NCBI RefSeq assembly: GCF_016586165.1
Contig: NZ_BCPR01000005.1
Coordinates: 1-64,000 of the forward strand
From: Dyella sp. EPa41
Lineage (GTDB): Bacteria; Pseudomonadota; Gammaproteobacteria; Xanthomonadales; Rhodanobacteraceae
Length of the DNA stretch: 64,000 bases
Direction of reading: 5' to 3'
Position 1 is the stretch's first letter. Each line of letters begins with the position of its first letter. Position numbers and translations under genes: made by a program. A model generated the notes under the pieces. The model saw only the letters and a list, made by a program, of their open reading frames with translations, ran no database searches and had not been told where the DNA came from. This document shows, piece by piece, positions 1,928 through 22,248 of this stretch.

Positions 1928-4069
1928 TCAGAAAGTGAAGCGTGCGCCAAACAGCCAGGTGCGCCCCGGCGCAGGCTCGTAGTAGCGGCCGTTGCCGTCG
2001 TTGACGATCACCGAGCCGATGTAGCGCCGGTCGGCGAGGTTGTCGACGCGCGCGCTCAGCTGCAGGCGTTGCTTCTCGCCAAGCACGAAGGTGTAGGCGA
2101 CATCGGCATCGAACACCGCATAGCCGGCTGCCGTGGCCGTGCCGATGTCGTTGGCCGTGGTCATGCCCGCGCCGCTGAGCGTGAGCCCTTCGCGCCAGCC
2201 GGTGTCGCCACCGTGCTGCAGGCGTAGCGAACCGTAATCCTCGGGTACGCCCGGCATGCGCGAACCCGCCGCCACCGGCACCGTGGGCGTCGTGCAAGGC
2301 GTTCCTGCACAAGTAAGGAAGCCGCTGCGGAACTGCGCCTGCAGATGCGTGTAGGCGGCGATGAGGTGCCAGCCCGGCGCGAGCTCGCCGTCGAAGGAAA
2401 GCTCGATGCCCTGCCGGCGCGTGTCATGCACGTTGCGGTAGGTGGTGCGTCCGTTGACGCTGGTGGCGATGGCCAGTTCGTCGCGCGTATCCGCGCGGAA
2501 CAGCGCCGCGTCGAACTCCATCGCCGGCGCAAGTGGCCACTTCAGGCCCGCCTCGACGTTGTGGCTGCGCGCGGGCCGCAGGTTGAAGGCGAGCCCCGGC
2601 TGCCCGTCGCTGCGATAGCCAAGCTCGTTGTAGCTGGGCGTTTCGAAGCCCTCGCCGTAGCTCGCGTACAACCGCAACGCATCGCCGGGGCGATACTGCA
2701 ACGCCACCACCGGCGTGGTGGCGGAATAGTCGACGCTGCCGCTGTCGTCCGGATTGCGCGGCGTGATGTAGTAGTCGTGCTCGCTGAAGCGCACCTCGTC
2801 GCGGCGCAGCCCCAGCATCAGCGCCCACGACGGCGCGAAGTGCCAGTACCACTGCGCGTAGGCCGCCACGTCATCGACATTGTCGTCCTCGTCACGACGC
2901 AGCCGCCCCTTGACGCCTAGCGTCGTGCCCACGAAGTTCTCGTAGCCCAGGCGGTGCTGCCGCTGGTAGTCGCCACTCGCACCCAGCACGAATTCGTAGT
3001 CGCCACCGGCCAGCTGGCCCCGATGCGACCAGCGCAGGTCGGCGCCGCCATAGTGCGTGTTGGGCTCCACCACGCCGCCGGGTTGCAGCGGGTTGAGCTG
3101 GGTGGCGACGGGGATCGATTGATACTGGGTGATCTCGCGCTCGCCGTAATACGCCATGGCGCGCCACTGGCCGTCCTCGCCGGAAGGCCGTTCGTAGATC
3201 ACGCCGGCCTGGTCCTGCCGCGTGCTCTTGCGCGTATCGAATGCCAGCGCCGCCGGCGAAGCCTGGCGCGGGTCCGCCGCGGCCTGCGCCTTGGTGAGCC
3301 CCATCGGGTCTTCCGCGCGCGGCTGGTCGAGATGATTCACCACCACCGTCAACGATTGCCCATGGCCGAGATCGAAACCCAGTCGCGCGTGCGCGGACTG
3401 CCGGTTCACGCGGCTGTGCTGCCGATAACCGCCGGAGAGGAATTGCGACGCGGCGATGTTGTAGTCCATCGGGCCCGCGGTGCCGCGCGTGTCGACGCTG
3501 TAGCGGAAGCTGTCGTCACTGCCCCCGTACACGCCAAGCGTGGTCTGCGGTGTCGGCGTACCCGGCGCGCTCCACATCTGCACCACGCCACCCGCCGCGT
3601 TGCCGTAGAGCACCGAGAACGGTCCGCGCAATACCTCCACGCGATCGGCGGTGTCGAGCACGAAATGCGAGACCTGTCCCTGGCCGTCCGGCAGCGTCGC
3701 GGGCACGCCATCGAGATAGAGCCGGATGCTGCGCACGCCGAACGTGCTGCGCGAGCCGAAACCGCGTATCGAGATCTGCTCGTCCTGCGCGTAGTTCTGG
3801 CGATCGCGCGCCAGGATGCCGGGCACCCCCACCAGGGTTTCGGAGAGATTGACGCCCGCCTCGCCCGACTCCGACGGCGCCACGCGCACCACGCTCAACG
3901 CGGCGGGCACATCGATGGGCGGCATGCCGAGGCGGCTGGCATTGACCTGCACGGTGGAAAGCGTGGCGGCCTGGCCCTGCGAGCCAGCCTGCTGCGCGAA
4001 GACCGTCGCCCAGGGCGAGCTCGCGACGATCATCACGCTGGCCATCCTGCGAAGGCTTCGCGAGGACAT
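1928..4069 (-). CDS. TonB-dependent outer-membrane receptor
   Basis: The 713-residue protein has a signal peptide (MSSRSLRRMASVMIV... to VFAQQ), a TonB-box-like stretch (STVQVNA) and a plug domain with ISIRGFGSRS, LDGVPATLPDGQG and VEVLRGPFSVLYG. A long beta-barrel follows and ends in the terminal Phe of outer-membrane proteins (ARFTF). The start at 4069 was chosen because GGAG lies 7 bases upstream and the signal peptide follows; the frame stays open to 4333. It is divergent from xoxF across a shared 410-bp control region. That suggests, but does not prove, import of a lanthanide chelate or another metal complex for the dehydrogenase. Confidence 0.9.
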   Translation of the reverse strand: MSSRSLRRMASVMIVASSPWATVFAQQAGSQGQAATLSTVQVNASRLGMPPIDVPAALSVVRVAPSESGEAGVNLSETLVGVPGILARDRQNYAQDEQISIRGFGSRSTFGVRSIRLYLDGVPATLPDGQGQVSHFVLDTADRVEVLRGPFSVLYGNAAGGVVQMWSAPGTPTPQTTLGVYGGSDDSFRYSVDTRGTAGPMDYNIAASQFLSGGYRQHSRVNRQSAHARLGFDLGHGQSLTVVVNHLDQPRAEDPMGLTKAQAAADPRQASPAALAFDTRKSTRQDQAGVIYERPSGEDGQWRAMAYYGEREITQYQSIPVATQLNPLQPGGVVEPNTHYGGADLRWSHRGQLAGGDYEFVLGASGDYQRQHRLGYENFVGTTLGVKGRLRRDEDDNVDDVAAYAQWYWHFAPSWALMLGLRRDEVRFSEHDYYITPRNPDDSGSVDYSATTPVVALQYRPGDALRLYASYGEGFETPSYNELGYRSDGQPGLAFNLRPARSHNVEAGLKWPLAPAMEFDAALFRADTRDELAIATSVNGRTTYRNVHDTRRQGIELSFDGELAPGWHLIAAYTHLQAQFRSGFLTCAGTPCTTPTVPVAAGSRMPGVPEDYGSLRLQHGGDTGWREGLTLSGAGMTTANDIGTATAAGYAVFDADVAYTFVLGEKQRLQLSARVDNLADRRYIGSVIVNDGNGRYYEPAPGRTWLFGARFTF

Positions 4070-4479
4070 CGTCGGTCTCCGTGGCGTCGTGGGGTAGCGC
4101 TGCATGATCACGAGGTCGGTGGTGGCGATGCAAGTGCGGCGTGAGTGATCGCGTGCATGCTTGGGGGCGTGCTGCGATGGCTGGTCGTTGTCGCTTCGTG
4201 GGCTTTTCGCGCGCTGGGTGCGCTCCTTCACGGAAAGCGAAAAGAAACTGCGCCAGTTCTGCAGCACGCAGTGTGGCGTTATGGGGACACTCGCCGTGCC
4301 GGCACGTGCTTGGGCATGCCATGGAAATCCCATAGATCGATGATTGTGTGGTCATTTTTCCCGATATCGGGAGCTGGCACGTGGGCTGCTACATGCACGA
4401 TGCAGTTACCTGTGCCGATGCTCGCGCAGCGTTGCGGTCACCGGTGCGTCCTCGTTCCACGTGCCCGGGGAGAACCATC
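4070..4479. promoter_or_regulatory. Divergent control region between TonB receptor and xoxF
   Basis: This 410-bp stretch contains no gene. Besides the sigma-54 site it holds a dyad AACTG-CGC-CAGTT (4246-4258) and a remnant (about 4206-4227) of the repeat unit found at 293-407. It should carry the promoters of both divergent genes. Confidence 0.5.
4375..4390 (+). promoter_or_regulatory. Sigma-54 (-24/-12) promoter of the xox operon
   Basis: TGGCACGTGGGCTGCT matches the sigma-54 consensus TGGCACG-N4-TTGCW at 11 of 12 informative positions, with invariant GG (4376-4377) and GC (4388-4389) correctly spaced. It lies 90 bp before the xoxF ATG. A perfect 12-bp palindrome CCCGATATCGGG (4360-4371) abuts it upstream and may be an operator. 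A sigma-54 activator is encoded at the end of the same gene cluster. Confidence 0.75.
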
Positions 4480-6279
4480 ATGCCCAGTCCGTCCGTTTGC
4501 CGTTGGCGACACCTCAGCGCCATCGCATGCCTCAGCCTTGCGTTGCCGTGCATCGCATCGGCCGACGATCAGTTGGACAAGCTTTCGCAGGACCACAACC
4601 AGTGGGTGATCCCCGCGGGCAACTACGCGGGCCAGCGGTACAGCGGCCTCAACCAGATCACCGCCGACAACGTGAAGAACCTCCATGTGGCCTGGACGAT
4701 GTCCACCGGCTCGCTGCGCGGCCATGAAGGCCAGCCGTTGATCGTCGGCGACACCATGTATTTCGAAAGTTCATTCCCGAACTACGTGTACGCCGTTTCG
4801 CTGAAGGAGCCGGGGCGCATCCTGTGGAAGTTCGCCCCGCAGCAGGACAAGTTCGCGCCCTCCGTGGCCTGTTGCGACGTGGTCAACCGCGGCGTCGCCT
4901 ATGCCAACGGCGTCATCTACGCCAACGCGCTGGACGGCTTCCTCTACGCGCTGGACGCCAAGAACGGCAACGTGAAGTGGAAGGTGCAGAACGCGGACCC
5001 GAAGCTGGGCCAGACCCAGACGATGGCCCCATTGGTGGTGAAGAACGTGGTGATCACCGGCGTATCCGGTGCCGAGTACGGCGTGCACGGCTACGTGACC
5101 GGCAACGACGCGGCCAGCGGCAAGCAGCTGTGGCGCGCCTACAGCACCGGCCCCGACGACCAGCTGATGTTCGACCCGGACAAGACCATCGACGGCGCGA
5201 CGCAGAAACCCGTGGGCAAGAACTCCAGCCTCGCCTCCTGGCAGGGCGACCAGTGGAAGCTCGGCGGCGGCACCACCTGGGGCTGGTACACCTACGACCC
5301 CAAGCTCGACCTGTTCTATTACGGCACCGGCAACCCCGGCACCTGGAACCCGACGCAACGTCCGGGCGACAACAAGTACTCGATGTCGATCATCGCGCGC
5401 AGCCCGGAAACCGGCAAGGCGAAATGGGTGTTCCAGATGACGCCGCACGACGGCTGGGACTATGACGGCGTCAACGAAAGCATCCTCACCGACAGCACCA
5501 TCGACGGCAAGACCGTGCCGACCCTCACCCACTTCGATCGCAACGGCTTCGCCTACGTGCTAGACCGCCGCACCGGCAAGCTGCTCTCCGCCAAGAAGTA
5601 CGACGCGGTGGTGAACTGGGCCGACCACATCGACATGGCGACCGGTCGCCCCGTGCTGAACGACGCGATGATGACCAAGGAAAACGTCAACGTGAAAGGC
5701 ATCTGCCCCTCGTCACAGGGCAGCAAGGACCAGCAGCCGGCCTCGTACGACCCCAACACCAAGCTGTTCTACGTGCCCACCAACCACGTGTGCATGGACT
5801 ACCAGGCGTTCAACGTGAAGTACAAGGCGGGCTTCCCGTATGTCGGCGCGCTGGTGAACATGTATCCGGCCGACCACGGCGAAGTGGGCGGCCGCTTCAT
5901 CGCGTTCGACCCGATCAGCGGGCAGACCAAGTGGGAGATCAAGGATCGCTTCCAGGATTGGGGCGGCGCGCTCACCACGGCCGGCGGCCTGGTGTTCTAC
6001 GGCACGCTCACCGGCGATTTCCGCGCGGTGGACATCAAGACGGGCAAGGTGCTTTGGCACTTCAAGACGCCCTCGGGAATCATCGGCAACCCGATCACGT
6101 ACACCTATGACGGCAAGCAGTACGTGGCGATCTTGAGCGGTGTCGGTGGCTGGGCGGCCATTGGCCTGGCCGAAAACCTCACCAAGGCGACCGAGGGCCT
6201 CGGCGCGGTGGGCGCCACGGCGAGCCTCGCGGACTACACGAACCTCGGCGGCACCTTGCTGGTGTTCGCCATCGATTGA
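4480..6279 (+). CDS. xoxF: XoxF-type lanthanide-dependent PQQ methanol dehydrogenase
   Basis: This periplasmic quinoprotein of 599 residues oxidises methanol (often also ethanol or formaldehyde) and passes electrons to a c-type cytochrome. The start at 4480 has GGGGAGAA upstream and opens a signal peptide (MPSPSVCRWRH... to CIASA). The vicinal disulphide CC pair over PQQ is at residues 131-132. The motif WDYDGVNE gives catalytic Asp327 plus Asp329, the extra carboxylate that marks rare-earth-binding XoxF enzymes; calcium-type MxaF has Ala there. It heads a tight operon with xoxJ, a xoxG-like cytochrome and formaldehyde-oxidising genes. No PQQ biosynthesis genes lie in the window. Confidence 0.93.
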   Translation: MPSPSVCRWRHLSAIACLSLALPCIASADDQLDKLSQDHNQWVIPAGNYAGQRYSGLNQITADNVKNLHVAWTMSTGSLRGHEGQPLIVGDTMYFESSFPNYVYAVSLKEPGRILWKFAPQQDKFAPSVACCDVVNRGVAYANGVIYANALDGFLYALDAKNGNVKWKVQNADPKLGQTQTMAPLVVKNVVITGVSGAEYGVHGYVTGNDAASGKQLWRAYSTGPDDQLMFDPDKTIDGATQKPVGKNSSLASWQGDQWKLGGGTTWGWYTYDPKLDLFYYGTGNPGTWNPTQRPGDNKYSMSIIARSPETGKAKWVFQMTPHDGWDYDGVNESILTDSTIDGKTVPTLTHFDRNGFAYVLDRRTGKLLSAKKYDAVVNWADHIDMATGRPVLNDAMMTKENVNVKGICPSSQGSKDQQPASYDPNTKLFYVPTNHVCMDYQAFNVKYKAGFPYVGALVNMYPADHGEVGGRFIAFDPISGQTKWEIKDRFQDWGGALTTAGGLVFYGTLTGDFRAVDIKTGKVLWHFKTPSGIIGNPITYTYDGKQYVAILSGVGGWAAIGLAENLTKATEGLGAVGATASLADYTNLGGTLLVFAID

Positions 6280-15785: not shown

Positions 15786-17351
15786 TCAGAGCAGGCTGTC
15801 GATGGGGAGCATGCGCAGCAGGGTGACTTCGGTGCGCCGCTTGGTGGTGGCATCGGGTTCGCTCTGGTAGATCACCGGCTTGCCGTCGGCCGTGGTGAGC
15901 CATACCAGGTGGTGCGAAGCGGGGTCGACCATCACCTGGTAGGCATTGGACGGCAAGGTCGCGGTGCGGAAGAAGTCGCCGATGGCCTTCGCGAGGCCTG
16001 GCGAATCCACGATGACACCCATCTCGGTATTGAGCAGCTTGGATCGCTGGTCCATGTTCAGCGAGCCGATGAAGACCTGCCGGCCATCCACCACGATGGT
16101 CTTGGCGTGAAGGCTGATGCCCGAGGATTTGCCCAGCGAGGTCGACGGCTGGCTCTGTCCCCATGAGGGCTTCAGTTCGTAGAGCTGCACGCCGCCTTCG
16201 ACCAGCGCCTTGCGGTAGTGCACGTAGCCGGCATGCGCCGCGGTCTCGTCGGTCGAGGCGAGCGAGTTCGTGAGGATCCTGATGGACAGGCCGTTCTGCG
16301 CAAGGGAAGCCAGGTGCCTGGTGCCGGCGTCACCCGGAATGAAGTAGGGCGTGGACGCCAGGATCTCGTGCTGCGCTCCGTCCAGCATGGTCTTGAGCTT
16401 GGGGCCGATGCGCAACGCCGGCACGTCGCGCGAGGCCTCGATCTTTTCAGGCTGGTCGGCCACCAGTTCGGCATCGCCCCAGAACCATGCGCCGCGCGCG
16501 TCGGCGGTCGGGCCGTCCGGGAGTTCATCGATCACGGCCTGCGCGTAATCCGATTTGGCGAAGGCGCGCACTTCCTTCTTGAGTACCTGGCGCGCGGCGG
16601 CAAGCTGCTGGCCGGAGCCGTCCGTCTTCTTGAGCTGGTTGAGCGGATAGGCGACATCGCAGTTCCAGTAGGCATCGAACGCCTCGGAGGCCTGGTGCAC
16701 GACCGGCCCAATGGCGATCACGTCGAGATCGCGGAAATGCGTGTCGCTGCCCGCATCGAAATAGGGATCGCCGATATTGCGCCCGCCGATCACCGCCACG
16801 TTGTTGTCGACGATGAAGGACTTGTTGTGCATGCGCCGGTTGAGCCGTCGCCACTCGAGCATGAACTGCGTGGCGCGGGACAGCAGCGTGGGATCGCGCG
16901 TCTGGAACGGGTTGAACAGGCGGATCTCGATGTTGGGATGCGAATCCAGCGCCTCGAACAGGTGATCCTTGTCGTCGAAGTTGTTGTCGTCGATGAGCAT
17001 GCGCACGCGCACGCCGCGGTCGGCCGCGGCCAGCAGATGCTGCAGCATCAGGTGGCCGGTCATGTCGTTGGCGAAGATGTAGTACTGCAGGTCGATCGAA
17101 TGCGCGGCCCGGTCGGCCAGCGCCACCCGGCTGAGCAGCGCGTTGGTGCTCAAGGTCAGCAAGCGGAACCCGGATTGGTTCTGGTGCTTGTCCACCTCGG
17201 CATGCGCATAGCGGGCCGCCGCGGTGTCGTCGGCGGGAGTCAGGTGATGCGTCTCCTCCTTCGCGGTGCTGGGCGGCAGCGTGGAACACGCCTGAAGGAA
17301 CAGACAAAGGATTGTGAAGGCAAACGAGACGATCCGACGATCTGTCCGCAT
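15786..17351 (-). CDS. Phospholipase D / cardiolipin synthase-like lipoprotein
   Basis: This 521-residue protein has two HKD motifs, HNKSFIVDNNVAVIGGRN and HAKTIVVDGRQVFIGSLN, that form one phosphatidyltransferase active site. It begins with a lipoprotein signal (FLFLQ-type hydrophobic run then LQAC, Cys near residue 22), so it is probably anchored in the periplasm; this matches the ClsC/YmdC-like and related PLD lipoproteins. The start at 17351 follows GAGGTG; an ATG 33 bases upstream is possible. No second synthase subunit lies nearby. Confidence 0.88.
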   Translation of the reverse strand: MRTDRRIVSFAFTILCLFLQACSTLPPSTAKEETHHLTPADDTAAARYAHAEVDKHQNQSGFRLLTLSTNALLSRVALADRAAHSIDLQYYIFANDMTGHLMLQHLLAAADRGVRVRMLIDDNNFDDKDHLFEALDSHPNIEIRLFNPFQTRDPTLLSRATQFMLEWRRLNRRMHNKSFIVDNNVAVIGGRNIGDPYFDAGSDTHFRDLDVIAIGPVVHQASEAFDAYWNCDVAYPLNQLKKTDGSGQQLAAARQVLKKEVRAFAKSDYAQAVIDELPDGPTADARGAWFWGDAELVADQPEKIEASRDVPALRIGPKLKTMLDGAQHEILASTPYFIPGDAGTRHLASLAQNGLSIRILTNSLASTDETAAHAGYVHYRKALVEGGVQLYELKPSWGQSQPSTSLGKSSGISLHAKTIVVDGRQVFIGSLNMDQRSKLLNTEMGVIVDSPGLAKAIGDFFRTATLPSNAYQVMVDPASHHLVWLTTADGKPVIYQSEPDATTKRRTEVTLLRMLPIDSLL

Positions 17352-17588
17352 GTCCGCACCTCGACGCAGGACCACGAAACGCACCGACCGGTGACATCAT
17401 CCATTTAACATAGCCAAGCCCTATCACGGCTGACTGTTGCACCCTGCATGCATGGCATGCACACATGTTCCATACAGCTTTCCGGGCGGCGCGATAGCAT
17501 CGGAATGGCCGTCCGAACGGACGTGACGATCATGTGCAGGGATGCACACCGGCTTCGCACCCGCTTCAAGCACGCAAATGGATCACCC

Positions 17589-17984
17589 ATGGCTAAAACA
17601 CGCATGCCCTCGACACGTCTTGCCGCCCGGCTGCTCGGGCTGGCCATGGGCACCGCATGCGCGGCGACGGCGCATGCCGACCTGGATGCCACGGGCCAGC
17701 GCGAAGTGCAGGCCTTGCTCGCCTTTGTCGGAAGCAGCCATTGCACGTTCATCCGCAACGGCAAGGCCTACGATGCCGAGGCGGCGCGGAACCATCTGCA
17801 ATACAAGCTCGACTACCTGGTGCAACGGCACAAGGTGAATTCCGCGGAGGAGTTCATCGAGCGCGCGGGCACCGACAGCAGCTTCAGCGGAAAGCCCTAC
17901 CGGGTGAACTGCGACGGCACCGAGCGCCTCTCGGCCGATTGGCTCAGGGAAGAGCTTCAGCGTCTACGCGCCACGCCACCATAG
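17589..17984 (+). CDS. DUF5329 family small exported protein
   Basis: The 131-residue protein has a signal peptide (MAKTRMPSTRLAARLLGLAM... to AHA) and the conserved DUF5329 core (IxxLLAFVGSSHCTFIRNGKAYDAEAARNHL..., then FIERAGTDSSFSGKPYRV). Function is unknown. The frame is open to 17448, but the signal peptide sets the likely start. Two cysteines (SSHC and VNC) could form a disulphide. It is followed 124 bp later by the borosin-type methyltransferase, without evidence of a link. Confidence 0.8.
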   Translation: MAKTRMPSTRLAARLLGLAMGTACAATAHADLDATGQREVQALLAFVGSSHCTFIRNGKAYDAEAARNHLQYKLDYLVQRHKVNSAEEFIERAGTDSSFSGKPYRVNCDGTERLSADWLREELQRLRATPP

Positions 17985-18108
17985 GTTGGCGGCCAGCCCG
18001 TCACGCCTGGACTGCCACCGGCGCCCTCTTCCCGATCCCCCGACCGCCGGCACCGGGCTCCCCGCCGTTCGTCACACGCGTGCCGGGAAAATTGCCTACC
18101 ATCACAGC

Positions 18109-18930
18109 ATGACCGCCCCTTCCTTACCCAACGATGCCCCCCGCGGCAGCCTCGCCTGTGTCGGCCTGGGCATGACGCTCGGCTCCCATCTCACGCCGCT
18201 GGCGCGCAGCCATATCGAGCAGGCCGACGTGGTCTTCGCCGCCCTGGCCCATGGCGCCGCGGAAATGTGGCTGCAACGCATGCATCCGGACGTGCGCAGC
18301 CTCCAGCCCTACTACAAGGAAGGCAAATCGCGGCAGAAGACCTACCGCGAATGGGTCGACCTGATGATGACCGAAGTGCGCGCCGGCAAGCGCGTGTGCG
18401 CCGTCTTCTACGGCCACCCGGGCATCTTCGCCTGGTCGCCGCGCACCGCCATCGAACAGGCCCGGGCGGAGGGCCACGTCGCGCACATGGAGCCCGGCAT
18501 TTCCGCGGAAGACTGTCTCTACGCGGACCTGGGCATCGACCCCGGCCGCTTCGGCTGCCAGCACTTCGAAGCCAGCCAGTTGCTGTTCTACGAGCGCAAG
18601 ATCGACCCGTGCGGCTATCTGGTGCTGTGGCAGGTGGCGCTGGTCGGCGACTGGTCGCTCACGCGCTTCGAAACCGGCCCCGCCTATCGCAAGGTGCTGG
18701 TGGACGTTTTGAGCGCCGACTATCCGCTCGACCACGACATCATCATTTATCGCGCCGCGACGCTGCCGATCGAAAAACCAAGGGTGCGTCGCATACGGCT
18801 GGGCGAGCTTCCCGATATCACGCTCACCGGCGAAGACACCGTGGTGTTGCCGCCCGCCGCGCGCCTGAAGCCGAACCTCGCCGTGCGCCAGCGGCTGCAG
18901 GCGTTGGACGAGGCGTGTGCCCTGGCATGA
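18109..18930 (+). CDS. Borosin-type peptide alpha-N-methyltransferase (SonM/OphMA-like)
   Basis: The 273-residue protein belongs to the SAM-dependent tetrapyrrole-methylase superfamily (GSLACVGLGMTLGSHLTPLA, YGHPGIFAW, MEPGISAEDCLYADLGIDP). The pattern Y69, R75, Y79 and Y101 repeats the spacing of the catalytic Tyr/Arg/Tyr/Tyr residues of borosin methyltransferases, and ASQLLFY and LLWQ-type segments match too. Such enzymes methylate backbone amides of a ribosomal peptide; in bacterial 'split' borosins the precursor is a separate small protein. A fitting precursor gene lies 113 bp downstream. The start was chosen by alignment memory; its ribosome site is weak. An ordinary tetrapyrrole methylase is unlikely, as no porphyrin or cobalamin genes are near. 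Confidence 0.82.
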   Translation: MTAPSLPNDAPRGSLACVGLGMTLGSHLTPLARSHIEQADVVFAALAHGAAEMWLQRMHPDVRSLQPYYKEGKSRQKTYREWVDLMMTEVRAGKRVCAVFYGHPGIFAWSPRTAIEQARAEGHVAHMEPGISAEDCLYADLGIDPGRFGCQHFEASQLLFYERKIDPCGYLVLWQVALVGDWSLTRFETGPAYRKVLVDVLSADYPLDHDIIIYRAATLPIEKPRVRRIRLGELPDITLTGEDTVVLPPAARLKPNLAVRQRLQALDEACALA

Positions 18931-19016
18931 ACGTTTGCGCGACCATGTCCATGCGCGACATCGCACCTTCACATGACGTCATTGGCATGGGCATTGCTTG
19001 CATCGGAGATACCTGA
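18927..19016 (+). CDS. Possible 29-residue peptide coupled to the methyltransferase
   Basis: An ATG overlaps the methyltransferase stop (ATGA) and opens a 29-codon frame rich in Met and Cys (MNVCATMSMRDIAPSHD...). It has no recognised family and no independent ribosome site. It may be chance. It is listed because overlapping small genes in peptide-modification loci can be functional. Confidence 0.2.
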   Translation: MNVCATMSMRDIAPSHDVIGMGIACIGDT

Positions 19017-19043
19017 AACATCACAGGGAACAGGGGGAAAACC

Positions 19044-19328
19044 ATGTCGGACACGATCGATCTGCTGGAAGCCATCGGCAAGAACGCAGCCTTGCGCCAT
19101 GCGCCCACGGAAGAACTGGCGGAAGTGCTGAGCGAGGCCAACGCCTCCGAGGCCCTGCTCGCCGCGGTAAGGCAAGGCGACAGCTCGTTGCTCTCGGCCG
19201 AACTCGGCCACCATCCGCTGCGGGTCAATCATGACTACCACACCGGCGGAAACGAAGACGAAGAACAGCCCGATGGCGAACCCGGCGAAGAGAGCCCGGG
19301 CGAAGCCCCCGACTCCCTGCTCGGCTGA
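19044..19328 (+). CDS. Candidate split-borosin precursor peptide (SonA-like)
   Basis: The 94-residue protein follows a good ribosome site (AGGGGGAAAA). Residues 1-54 are predicted helical and resemble the borosin-binding domain of SonA-type precursors: a helix-rich N terminus, then LLAAVRQGD.SLLSAELG, comparable with the 'AVMTGDxxxLxxLxG' segment. The putative core follows directly, about residues 55-70 (GHHPLRVNHDYHTGGN), comparable with the HGNGD-ending core of SonA. An unusually long Glu/Pro/Asp-rich tail (71-90) follows. It sits just after the methyltransferase and 15 bp before a diguanylate cyclase that is probably unrelated. Methylation sites cannot be assigned from sequence. Confidence 0.72.
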   Translation: MSDTIDLLEAIGKNAALRHAPTEELAEVLSEANASEALLAAVRQGDSSLLSAELGHHPLRVNHDYHTGGNEDEEQPDGEPGEESPGEAPDSLLG

Positions 19329-19342
19329 CCGGCAACCTCAGC

Positions 19343-21118
19343 ATGCCACGCCGGTGGCACCGCTTTTCGCCATGGCCCGCACTGGCGGCCATGGCGTTTT
19401 GCGTCACCATCCGACCCTCATTTGCCGAAATACCCGCATCGGACCTCGGCGAGCAGCTTGAGCAGGCGGAAAGCCTGCGCACGGCAAACCATCCCCGCTT
19501 CCTGGAGCGCCTGGCGCAGTTGCGCCCGCGGACGCCCGCCATGTCCATGGCCGAGCGGTGGCATTTACGCTACCTCGACGCCTGGGAGGCCTCGTTCCAA
19601 GGTGACTACGCCAAGGCAGAGCCAAGGCTGCGGGACGTCATCGAGCACTCGGGCGATCCTGCGCTGGTGGTCAAGGCCACGGCCATACTCATGGATGACT
19701 GGGGCAGCAACAAGCGCTATCAGGAAGCGTTCGAACTGGCCAACCAGCTGGTGGAGAAGCTTCCCGGCACCCAGGACAAGCTCGCTCGCTTCGTCGCGCT
19801 GTCCTATCTCTCGCAGCTGTTGCGTTCGGCCGGCCAATACGAGCTGGCCGCGAGCTACGCGCATGAAATGGGGCAGGATCTGCCCGCAGGAGAAATGGCC
19901 TGCAAGCCGATGACCGCGGAAATCACCGCGCTCTACGAAACGCGCAAGCTGACCTCGTCCAGCGCGCAACTGCAGAGCGCGCTCGACGCCTGCCAGGCGG
20001 CGCACGAATCGGTATTCACCCATACGCTGTGGCTGGTCAAGGGCAGTCTCCATCTCGACGAAAACCAGCCGTCGAAGACGATCGAGCTGCTCCAGCGCAT
20101 TGCCCCGGGCGTCCGCTCGGATCAGTACTACTCCAACATGCTGACCTTGCAGGTGGAGTTGGCGCAGGCCAACTTGCGACTTGGCAGGGACGATGCCGCC
20201 CGCAAGGCCGCGCTCGCGGCACTCGCCCTGAGCGACCCCAGTGAAATCAACGAGACGCTGAGGGACGCCTACCTTGTGCTCTACAGCCTCGACAAGAAGC
20301 AGGGCAACACGGCGGCGGCACTGGCCAACTACGAGCACTACGTCGCGCAGGATGTCGGCTATCTCAACGACGTCAGCGCGAGAGCACTGGCCTACGCCAT
20401 GGCCAAGCAGCACGTGATCGTGCAGAAGCTGGAGACGGAGAAGCTCAGCCGCCAGAACAATATCCTTCGCCTGCAGCAGGCGCTGGACGCCAAGGCGGTC
20501 GAGACGATCCGCCTCTACATCATCCTGCTGCTCATGGTGCTCGCTTCGGCCGTGCTCTGGATGCTGCGGCTCAAGCGCTCGCAGCTCCATTTCAAGAAGC
20601 TGTCCTCGACCGATGGCCTGACCGGCGTCTACAACCACCAGCACTTCATGGGCGAAGCCGGCAAGGCCCTCCATCTGCTCGAACGAAGACAGGGCACCGC
20701 ATGCCTGTTCTTCATCGACCTCGACAACTTCAAGCACATCAACGACACCTACGGCCACGCCACGGGCGATGCCGTCCTGCGCCGCACCGTGACCATCTGC
20801 CGGCAGCAACTGCGCCCGACGGACCTGTTCGGACGCCTGGGCGGCGAAGAGTTCGGCATCCTGCTGCTCGATTGCACGCGCGAACAGGGCATCGCCATCG
20901 CCGAACGCATCCGTCGCGCCATCGACGTCGCCAAGGTGGAAGGCGATGACCGCATCGTCACCTTCTCCGCCAGCGTCGGCCTCGCTTCCACCGAGTACTG
21001 CGGCCACGACTTGAAGAGGCTGTGCAGGGAGGCGGATGCGGCGCTGTATCGCGCCAAGCGCGCCGGCCGCAATCGCGTGATCGCCGATACCGAAGAGGAC
21101 GGGCTGGTCGAAGCCTGA
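19343..21118 (+). CDS. Membrane diguanylate cyclase with periplasmic TPR sensor
   Basis: The 591-residue protein has an N-terminal signal/anchor, a long helical TPR-like region (about 35-380), one membrane segment (about 391-408, LYIILLLMVLASAVLWML) and a C-terminal GGDEF domain. The active-site motif is GGEEF (500-504), with the upstream motifs DGLTGVYNHQHF and FIDLDNFKHINDTYG intact, so synthesis of cyclic di-GMP is expected. It starts 14 bp after the borosin precursor candidate and could be co-transcribed. The signal sensed by the TPR region is unknown. Confidence 0.9.
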   Translation: MPRRWHRFSPWPALAAMAFCVTIRPSFAEIPASDLGEQLEQAESLRTANHPRFLERLAQLRPRTPAMSMAERWHLRYLDAWEASFQGDYAKAEPRLRDVIEHSGDPALVVKATAILMDDWGSNKRYQEAFELANQLVEKLPGTQDKLARFVALSYLSQLLRSAGQYELAASYAHEMGQDLPAGEMACKPMTAEITALYETRKLTSSSAQLQSALDACQAAHESVFTHTLWLVKGSLHLDENQPSKTIELLQRIAPGVRSDQYYSNMLTLQVELAQANLRLGRDDAARKAALAALALSDPSEINETLRDAYLVLYSLDKKQGNTAAALANYEHYVAQDVGYLNDVSARALAYAMAKQHVIVQKLETEKLSRQNNILRLQQALDAKAVETIRLYIILLLMVLASAVLWMLRLKRSQLHFKKLSSTDGLTGVYNHQHFMGEAGKALHLLERRQGTACLFFIDLDNFKHINDTYGHATGDAVLRRTVTICRQQLRPTDLFGRLGGEEFGILLLDCTREQGIAIAERIRRAIDVAKVEGDDRIVTFSASVGLASTEYCGHDLKRLCREADAALYRAKRAGRNRVIADTEEDGLVEA

Positions 21119-21152
21119 TCCGTGGCGATGCATTCCGCCGGGTTCAGCGCCA

Positions 21153-21179
21153 CGCCATGCCCGCCGCGCGGGCATGGCG
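21153..21179. terminator. Hairpin between convergent genes
   Basis: 11-bp perfect arms (CGCCATGCCCG / CGGGCATGGCG) with a 5-base loop lie between the stop of the cyclase and that of the methyltransferase on the other strand. There is no clear T-run, but the position suits a two-way terminator. Confidence 0.5.
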
Positions 21180-21189
21180 CGAAGCATCG

Positions 21190-22248
21190 TTACTTGACCC
21201 CGATGACCATCGAATCGGGCCCCAGCAACGGCTCGATGCGCACGTCGCGGAAGCCGGCGGCCGTCATCCATTCCCGGCATTCGGCGCCGGTGTAGTCGAA
21301 GCCACCGGGCGTTTCGATCAGCATGTTGAGGCTCATCAGCAGGCCGAAGGCATTGTGCCTGCGCTCGTCGTCGATGATCGCGTCGTACACGATCAGGCAG
21401 CCGCCCACGGGCAACGCGTCGTAGCACTTGGCCAGCAGGGCCTGCTTCTGGTCGTAGTCCCAGTCGTGGAGGATGTGGCCCATGATCAGCACGTCCGCCG
21501 ACGGGCAGGGATCATGGAAGAAATCGCCGGGGTAGAAGCGCAACCGGTCCTGCAGGCCGTGCGCGGCGACATAGTCGTCGAATACCGGCGCCACCAGCGG
21601 AAGATCGAAGCCGCCGCCGCGAAGATGCGGATGTGCCAGCGCGATCTGCACTGGACACGCGCCCTGCGCCGCACCGATGTCGATGAAGCTGCGGTAGTTC
21701 TCCCAGGGGAATTTCTTCGCGATGGCCTGGGCGGCGCCCAGGCTCACGCCGGTCATGGCCTGGAGAAAACCACGCAGCGACGGCTCGTCGCGATAGAGCT
21801 CGTCAAAGGGCGACGCGCCATCCTTGGAGCGGTTCTGCGGCAGCCCCGTGCGCAACGCCATGCTGAGCGAGCCCCAGTCCGCATAGAGTCGCCTCTCCAT
21901 CATTTCCAGCAGGCCACCCACGTAGCTCGGCTTGGCCCGATCGAAGAAGAGTTCCGCATCCGGCGTGTTGCGGTACTGGTCGTTGTCGCGCTCCAGCGCC
22001 CCCAGGGCCACCAGCGTGTCGAGGAAATCGCGGGACGAACGGGGATGCAGGCCAAGCGAGCGCTCGAGTTCTTCCTTGCTTCGGCTGGCGCCCGCGAGCT
22101 GCGTGAACACGCCCAGTTCGACGGCGGACAGCATGGCCTTGGACGCCCAGAAACCCATGCCCAGTTGCAGCAGGCGATCGGGGGAAAGCGCCTGGTCGGC
22201 GGGAACGGCCACGGGGGTTTCACGAACGGCGTTTTGCGGGACTTGCAT
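21190..22248 (-). CDS. SAM-dependent O-methyltransferase (hydroxyneurosporene/acetylserotonin type)
   Basis: The 352-residue protein has an N-terminal dimerisation/winged-helix part ([23 protein letters not shown]) and a class I methyltransferase domain ([17 protein letters not shown] for [12 protein letters not shown] with the catalytic-base His). The motif [10 protein letters not shown] is typical of the family. Small-molecule phenols or other hydroxyl groups are the usual substrates. The start at 22248 has GGAG upstream; the frame is open to 22371. No pathway partner is adjacent. Confidence 0.85.

Follow-up and report, generated by a model that had tools for sequence, protein, structure and literature searches.

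We know of no established role for the split borosins of bacteria. In SonM/SonA, the type IV (split) borosin of Shewanella oneidensis, the methyltransferase is separate from a short precursor that carries a borosin-binding domain (BBD); SonA, of 71 amino acids in 7ltc, has a linker at residues 54-61 and a core at residues 62-71, within which Leu63 and Ile65 are methylated, and the paper that describes this pair does not use the term GGDEF in its main text (PMC8429565). A link between borosins and GGDEF domains has already been drawn, because the Figure 1 legend of Xu et al. 2024 names a borosin architecture with a 'GGDEF-sequence-containing domain' (PMC11395268). This architecture resembles the one described below in that a borosin is linked with a GGDEF domain; both occurrences of GGDEF in that paper are in the legend, which leaves unstated the borosin type and whether the domain is fused or adjacent, and the main text assigns no role to it (PMC11395268). 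Regulation of a diguanylate cyclase through tetratricopeptide repeats (TPR) is known from the RcbA/RcbB system of Vibrio vulnificus, where the TPR part of a TPR-GGDEF cyclase controls the c-di-GMP output via a protein from its own operon; this partner differs from the one considered here in being another TPR protein, and the main text mentions no methyltransferase (PMC12282931). The literature searched, to which the primary borosin mining papers do not belong, contains no joint mention of borosin and tetratricopeptide and no described function for the GGDEF borosin architecture, and no item that joins borosin with diguanylate cyclase or c-di-GMP is among the matches listed.

A different precedent is provided by the RRNPP systems, in which an encoded peptide is read by a TPR receptor encoded next door. 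RRNPP receptors are cytoplasmic and occur in Gram-positive bacteria, their peptides are unmodified, and their output is DNA binding or a phosphatase activity. The receptor described here, with its predicted secretion signal and GGDEF output, falls outside the RRNPP definition, and its family at large combines a predicted periplasmic sensor with a GGDEF or kinase output, so that the likeness is one of working principle.

The locus in question is located in a 64,000-nucleotide stretch of the Dyella sp. EPa41 genome (hereafter, the window), to which all unprefixed coordinates refer. The first gene (18109..18930, plus strand) encodes a borosin-type peptide backbone alpha-N-methyltransferase of 273 amino acids, in which the Pfam domain TP_methylase is found and which matches SonM with an E-value of 5.8e-75 and OphMA with an E-value of about 1e-46 in phmmer searches. 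A preliminary description of this DNA had identified a borosin methyltransferase by the residues Y69, R75, Y79 and Y101, and this assignment is borne out: the four residues align with Y58, R67, Y71 and Y93, which have been investigated in SonM, and the Tyr/Arg/Tyr/Tyr set is complete. Among the 165 homologous ORFs whose alignments cover all four positions, 164 retain these residues, the sole exception being L164:5021-5947 (45% identity), which has lost all four.

The second gene (19044..19328, plus strand) encodes a 94-residue precursor that consists of a BBD leader with five predicted helices (residues 1-55; 19044..19208), a linker with the core candidate (residues 56-71; 19209..19256) and an acidic, Pro-containing tail (residues 72-94; 19257..19325). 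Single-sequence searches with this protein yielded no match. The preliminary description, which placed a BBD in the first 54 residues, had named an empty profile search against this domain as the refuting outcome; the family profile, built from 41 homologues, matches SonA 1-60 with an E-value of 4.4e-4. The structure model of the precursor, which is of low confidence, has five helices resembling those of SonA, and Foldseek searches with this model returned only rows at E above 1, so that the BBD assignment rests mainly on the profile match. The proposal of a split borosin, with a separate methyltransferase and BBD precursor, is thus backed by the sequence and profile tests and, weakly, by the structure model. 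With the same active-site residues and a BBD of similar length as in SonM/SonA (PMC8429565), the products of 18109-18930 and 19044-19328 almost certainly form a split borosin pair, for which methylation is predicted, and the locus is, judging from sequence, a further type IV (split) borosin.

The window precursor differs from SonA in its length of 94 residues, its acidic tail and its polar core candidate. When the profile alignment with SonA 1-60 is extended by eye, H63 and Y65 would correspond to residues 63 and 65 of SonA, both of which are methylated. The earlier placement of the core near residues 55-70 therefore stands as far as the SonA register is concerned and fits less well in composition, given that the tested borosin cores are primarily hydrophobic, although this is a trend and not a strict rule (PMC11285071). 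At the core position, the relatives of this precursor carry CCMLxP-like or PQITQ-like stretches.

The preliminary description had suggested that the tail could be a protease-processed follower. The long tail is a trait of the receptor-linked subfamily, because the six distinct precursors that have no GGDEF neighbour are short-tailed (total length 72-83 amino acids, with 1 to 5 acidic residues past residue 56), whereas the median tail in the 96 other precursor rows used is 41.5 residues. Tails with a GGDEF neighbour are longer (Mann-Whitney, 6e-5) and richer in D, E and P (9e-5), both values ignoring shared ancestry; in a few cyclase-linked precursors, poly-proline is found in place of acid. 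Charge matching between the tail and the sensor was considered and rejected, as no correlation was detected (rho 0.09).

The preliminary description ended the locus with the precursor, at position 19328; the pair that it described holds up, and the reading was incomplete in that it left out a third gene (19343..21118, plus strand), which begins 14 nucleotides past the precursor on the same strand. The 591-residue product comprises a secretion signal, a TPR-like helical superhelix (residues 35-319; 19445..20299), a membrane helix and a GGDEF catalytic domain with a GGEEF motif and an RPTD site (residues 422-578; 20606..21076). Pfam identifies GGDEF (E 7.9e-42) and TPR_14 in this frame, the AF2 model (pLDDT 87.8) consists of a helical superhelix and a long helix across the membrane, and the best Foldseek row for the GGDEF domain is 3ign (E 2e-13). 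In the 41 aligned cyclases, the GGEEF motif is invariably intact and the membrane helix is always present, the RxxD site is retained in 40, and the hydrophobic start is above the set threshold in 39. The product of 19343-21118 is thus a predicted receptor diguanylate cyclase, with c-di-GMP synthesis as the predicted activity, and the secretion signal together with the membrane helix leads to the prediction that its TPR domain is periplasmic. Two sensor cysteines, C187 and C217, are invariant across the 41 sequences, as would suit an oxidising compartment. Conservation is lower in the sensor (mean identity of 41%) than in the catalytic domain (60%). In comparisons with two Dyella species, dN/dS is 0.05-0.21 for the enzyme, BBD, tail, sensor and GGDEF domain (0.05-0.20 for the two halves of the precursor), that is, by this measure all five are under purifying selection.

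The three genes are strongly associated among relatives. At 80 related loci, BLAST detected the methyltransferase at 79, the precursor at 65 (76 by phmmer) and the cyclase at 70 (69 without L132, where the match is partial, distant and on the other strand); five other genes from the neighbourhood in the window were each detected at 1 to 9 of these loci. The gene that immediately precedes the methyltransferase (17448-17984), which encodes a DUF5329 protein, is present at only 2 of the 80 loci and hence is not part of the unit. A profile search of the 80 loci, seven further loci and the window produced 107 precursor rows, a count in which L149 is a duplicate of L134, one row represents a fragment of L133, and only a GGDEF remnant accompanies the second L075 pair. 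A cyclase frame is located directly behind the precursor in 87 rows and within 1.5 kb ahead in 11, one row is at a contig end, and eight have none. Starting from the other partner, 68 homologues of the sensor domain were found in 61 related genomes, and for 64 of these a precursor is encoded on the same strand no more than 900 bases ahead of the sensor (51 by coordinates and 13 read by hand from fetched loci); the four unpaired places are two in G022, one at a contig edge in G017 and one in G019. Thirty-eight of the 61 genomes encode both methyltransferase and sensor, two the methyltransferase only, none the sensor only, and 21 neither (the Fisher value for this co-occurrence disregards shared ancestry). 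In both genomes with the methyltransferase only, a diverged GGDEF gene adjoins it (L182, L189).

The association also persists through rearrangements. In L146, three precursor-cyclase units come after a single methyltransferase, and two further cyclase frames are located upstream. At nine loci (L203, L204 and L206-L212), a precursor and a cyclase are found in a stretch that lacks the methyltransferase, which is encoded elsewhere in the same genomes. The receptor is absent at the borosin loci L112, L134, L136 and L147. The last of these belongs to the source genome of the window, which has three methyltransferase-precursor pairs, two of them with a cyclase (on C5, the window, and C10) and one without (on C30, L147); the C30 precursor has 77 residues, a hydrophobic end and no tail, and an RHS-repeat protein is encoded downstream.

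In the window's own family, order and class, a TPR-type transducer adjoins the pair, in varying gene orders, at 26 of 33 methyltransferase loci. The other seven are L164, with its lost active site, the distant L166-L169, L188 at a contig edge, and L191; three weak matches (L192-L194), beside which no borosin or GGDEF frame was found, were set aside. The methyltransferase is found in 9 of 369 drawn genomes of the class, 15 of 398 of the phylum and 36 of 148 genomes of the order of G445, which is another than that of the window. From 57 places, 40 stretches were hand-picked, 39 from the order of G445 and one of another class. A transducer is encoded within 500 bp of the methyltransferase in 38 of the 40 (37 counted by the sensor profile and L239 by its kinase only; in L223, the sensor is on the opposite strand), 33 of which also have a precursor match and five do not; the two stretches without a transducer are L232, from outside the order of G445, and L251. 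The output part of these transducers is variable: GGDEF in 28, a kinase in six, a GGDEF part in the next frame in one, and the TPR protein alone at three loci. In Pfam searches, TPR was identified together with GGDEF (L216), together with a hybrid kinase (L163, L165 and L238) and alone (L246 and L247), and five of six TPR-only proteins start, as judged by eye, with a stretch resembling a secretion signal. In 12 genomes chosen for having the methyltransferase, 18 of the 21 sensor homologues, counted by hand, are within 4 kb of it; the other three are away from any methyltransferase found, and two of the three are clear cases without a precursor. A close relative of SonM/SonA is among the loci with a transducer, namely, L216, from a genus that we take to be Shewanella, in which the pair matches SonM with an E-value of 1.5e-138 and SonA with an E-value of 1.5e-25, and a TPR-GGDEF gene is located directly behind. 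Thus, although the SonM/SonA paper is silent on GGDEF in its main text (PMC8429565), a close relative of that pair has a TPR-GGDEF neighbour.

A chance neighbourhood was rejected on the strength of this conservation across loci, genomes and another order, and of a control in which the sensor of L213, used as a query, matched 0 of 14 methyltransferase-negative and 8 of 12 methyltransferase-positive genomes, the families of the two sets being unmatched. It is, in our judgment, very probable that the TPR receptor functions together with the methyltransferase-precursor pair. We propose that the three genes at 18109-21118 would constitute one signalling operon. By homology, the methyltransferase is expected to bind the N-terminal BBD of the precursor and to N-methylate a small number of backbone positions immediately after this domain; the modified C-terminal peptide would then be cleaved off and pass into the periplasm, where it would be bound by the TPR domain of the membrane-anchored diguanylate cyclase from the adjacent gene, and this binding would alter the c-di-GMP output. 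In agreement with the preliminary description, which had noted no adjacent protease or transporter, inspection of the operon revealed neither a peptidase nor an exporter. N-methylated peptides are said to cross membranes more readily (PMC8429565), so a transporter might be unnecessary; the acidic tail would probably need to be cut off before passage through the membrane. The proposal is weakened by the borosin loci that have no receptor, by the sensor homologues located away from any methyltransferase found, by the polar core candidate, by the absence of a charge correlation between tail and sensor, and by the missing secretion signal of the precursor.

The methyltransferase, the BBD precursor and the TPR sensor stay together when units are duplicated, when the gene order changes and when the output domain is swapped, which is most simply explained if the modified peptide meets the TPR domain. 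The methylated peptide appears to be made for the TPR sensor and is probably read by it, a step that we infer. We assign a probability of roughly 50% to the signalling-operon explanation as a whole, and consider the chances about even that the modified peptide is indeed what the TPR domain reads. A conserved cyclase partner suggests that the peptide is a signal, and the almost one-to-one association with a membrane receptor, in two orders and with swapped outputs, gives this peptide family a testable role. Should the peptide prove to be the ligand, it would represent a new type of peptide signal in Gram-negative bacteria and, to our knowledge, the first one with an N-methylated backbone. Somewhat more tentatively, with odds a little short of even, many gammaproteobacterial split borosins, those of the SonM/SonA lineage included, might represent peptide signalling in which a ribosomal, backbone-N-methylated peptide is made for its own periplasmic TPR receptor, the output of which can be exchanged (diguanylate cyclase, hybrid histidine kinase or soluble TPR binder).

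The alternative that survives best, although we consider it unlikely, is that the cyclase regulates borosin production, sensing some other periplasmic cue and, via c-di-GMP, switching on the making or release of an extracellular borosin. Such a function would be compatible with the same-strand position of the cyclase 14 nucleotides from the precursor and with the many binding partners of TPR domains. RcbB, a TPR-GGDEF protein, is involved in biofilm control, and the word 'methyltransferase' is absent from the main text of the respective paper (PMC12282931). A single regulator would, however, be expected to serve many precursors, yet the precursors tend to have their own cyclases, even when arranged in rows; moreover, L246-L248 retain the TPR part although they have no output domain, and no known c-di-GMP riboswitch is apparent in 17300-21300, because an Rfam search of this region produced no match up to E 1. 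Promoter-like sites were not found (0, with 0.4 expected); of the five terminator-like sites (2.4 expected), four are located on the minus strand, and the fifth is within the cyclase gene.

More doubtful is the possibility that no peptide is released and that the whole methylated precursor acts in the cytoplasm, either on the stalk or GGDEF part of the cyclase or by recruiting the methyltransferase. The window precursor has no secretion signal and, as indicated above, its operon no visible protease or exporter. In addition, a single 863-residue frame, L187:3276-5867, combines a signal, TPR, membrane helix, GGDEF and methyltransferase, which places the methyltransferase on the predicted cytoplasmic side; this is a counter-point to periplasmic reading and fits action on the GGDEF side as well. 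Against a cytoplasmic target, the element that is common to the GGDEF-containing, kinase-containing and output-less partners is the sensor rather than the output domain.

It appears quite improbable that the enzyme is a divergent homologue for which the 94-residue protein is not a methylation substrate. The polar core candidate and the loss of all four active-site residues in L164 would be in line with such divergence, but the window enzyme retains these residues, purifying selection acts on the enzyme, BBD and tail, and next to the L164 homologue, where a precursor or GGDEF frame was looked for, none was found. The least probable reading, in which an ordinary borosin natural product is secreted to act on competitors and the cyclase gene beside it is unrelated, could draw on the MFS transporter that adjoins two distant borosin-like loci (L166 and L168) but is at odds with a neighbourhood that is kept across many genomes and another order while the other neighbours tested vary between loci.

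At these two loci, the distant borosin-like methyltransferase (35-40% identity) has a short frame in front and the MFS transporter behind, possibly an exporter version in place of the receptor version. The stretch L251 encodes, at 3362-4858 on the minus strand, a protein with a LigA-like binding domain (just below the Pfam cut-off) and about ten or more repeats of the DAAIIKGYA type, which is a predicted multi-core borosin precursor; no TPR receptor was found near it. The precursor at L134:4323-4859 has a BBD, and the start of its frame resembles a secretion signal; a cyclase was not found nearby. In front of the sensor cyclase of G019 (L205), there is a broken precursor-like frame at about 5810-5890 on the minus strand (position estimated). 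The L080 record, labelled Candidatus Eremiobacteraeota, contains a Dyella-like locus with 80% identity, perhaps on a wrongly binned contig. Among the precursors of unusual composition, that at L143:6355-6777 contains repeated DKDEEEIR...GG units, and those of L114, L117 and L127 have doubled hydrophobic cores, most of which contain Cys.
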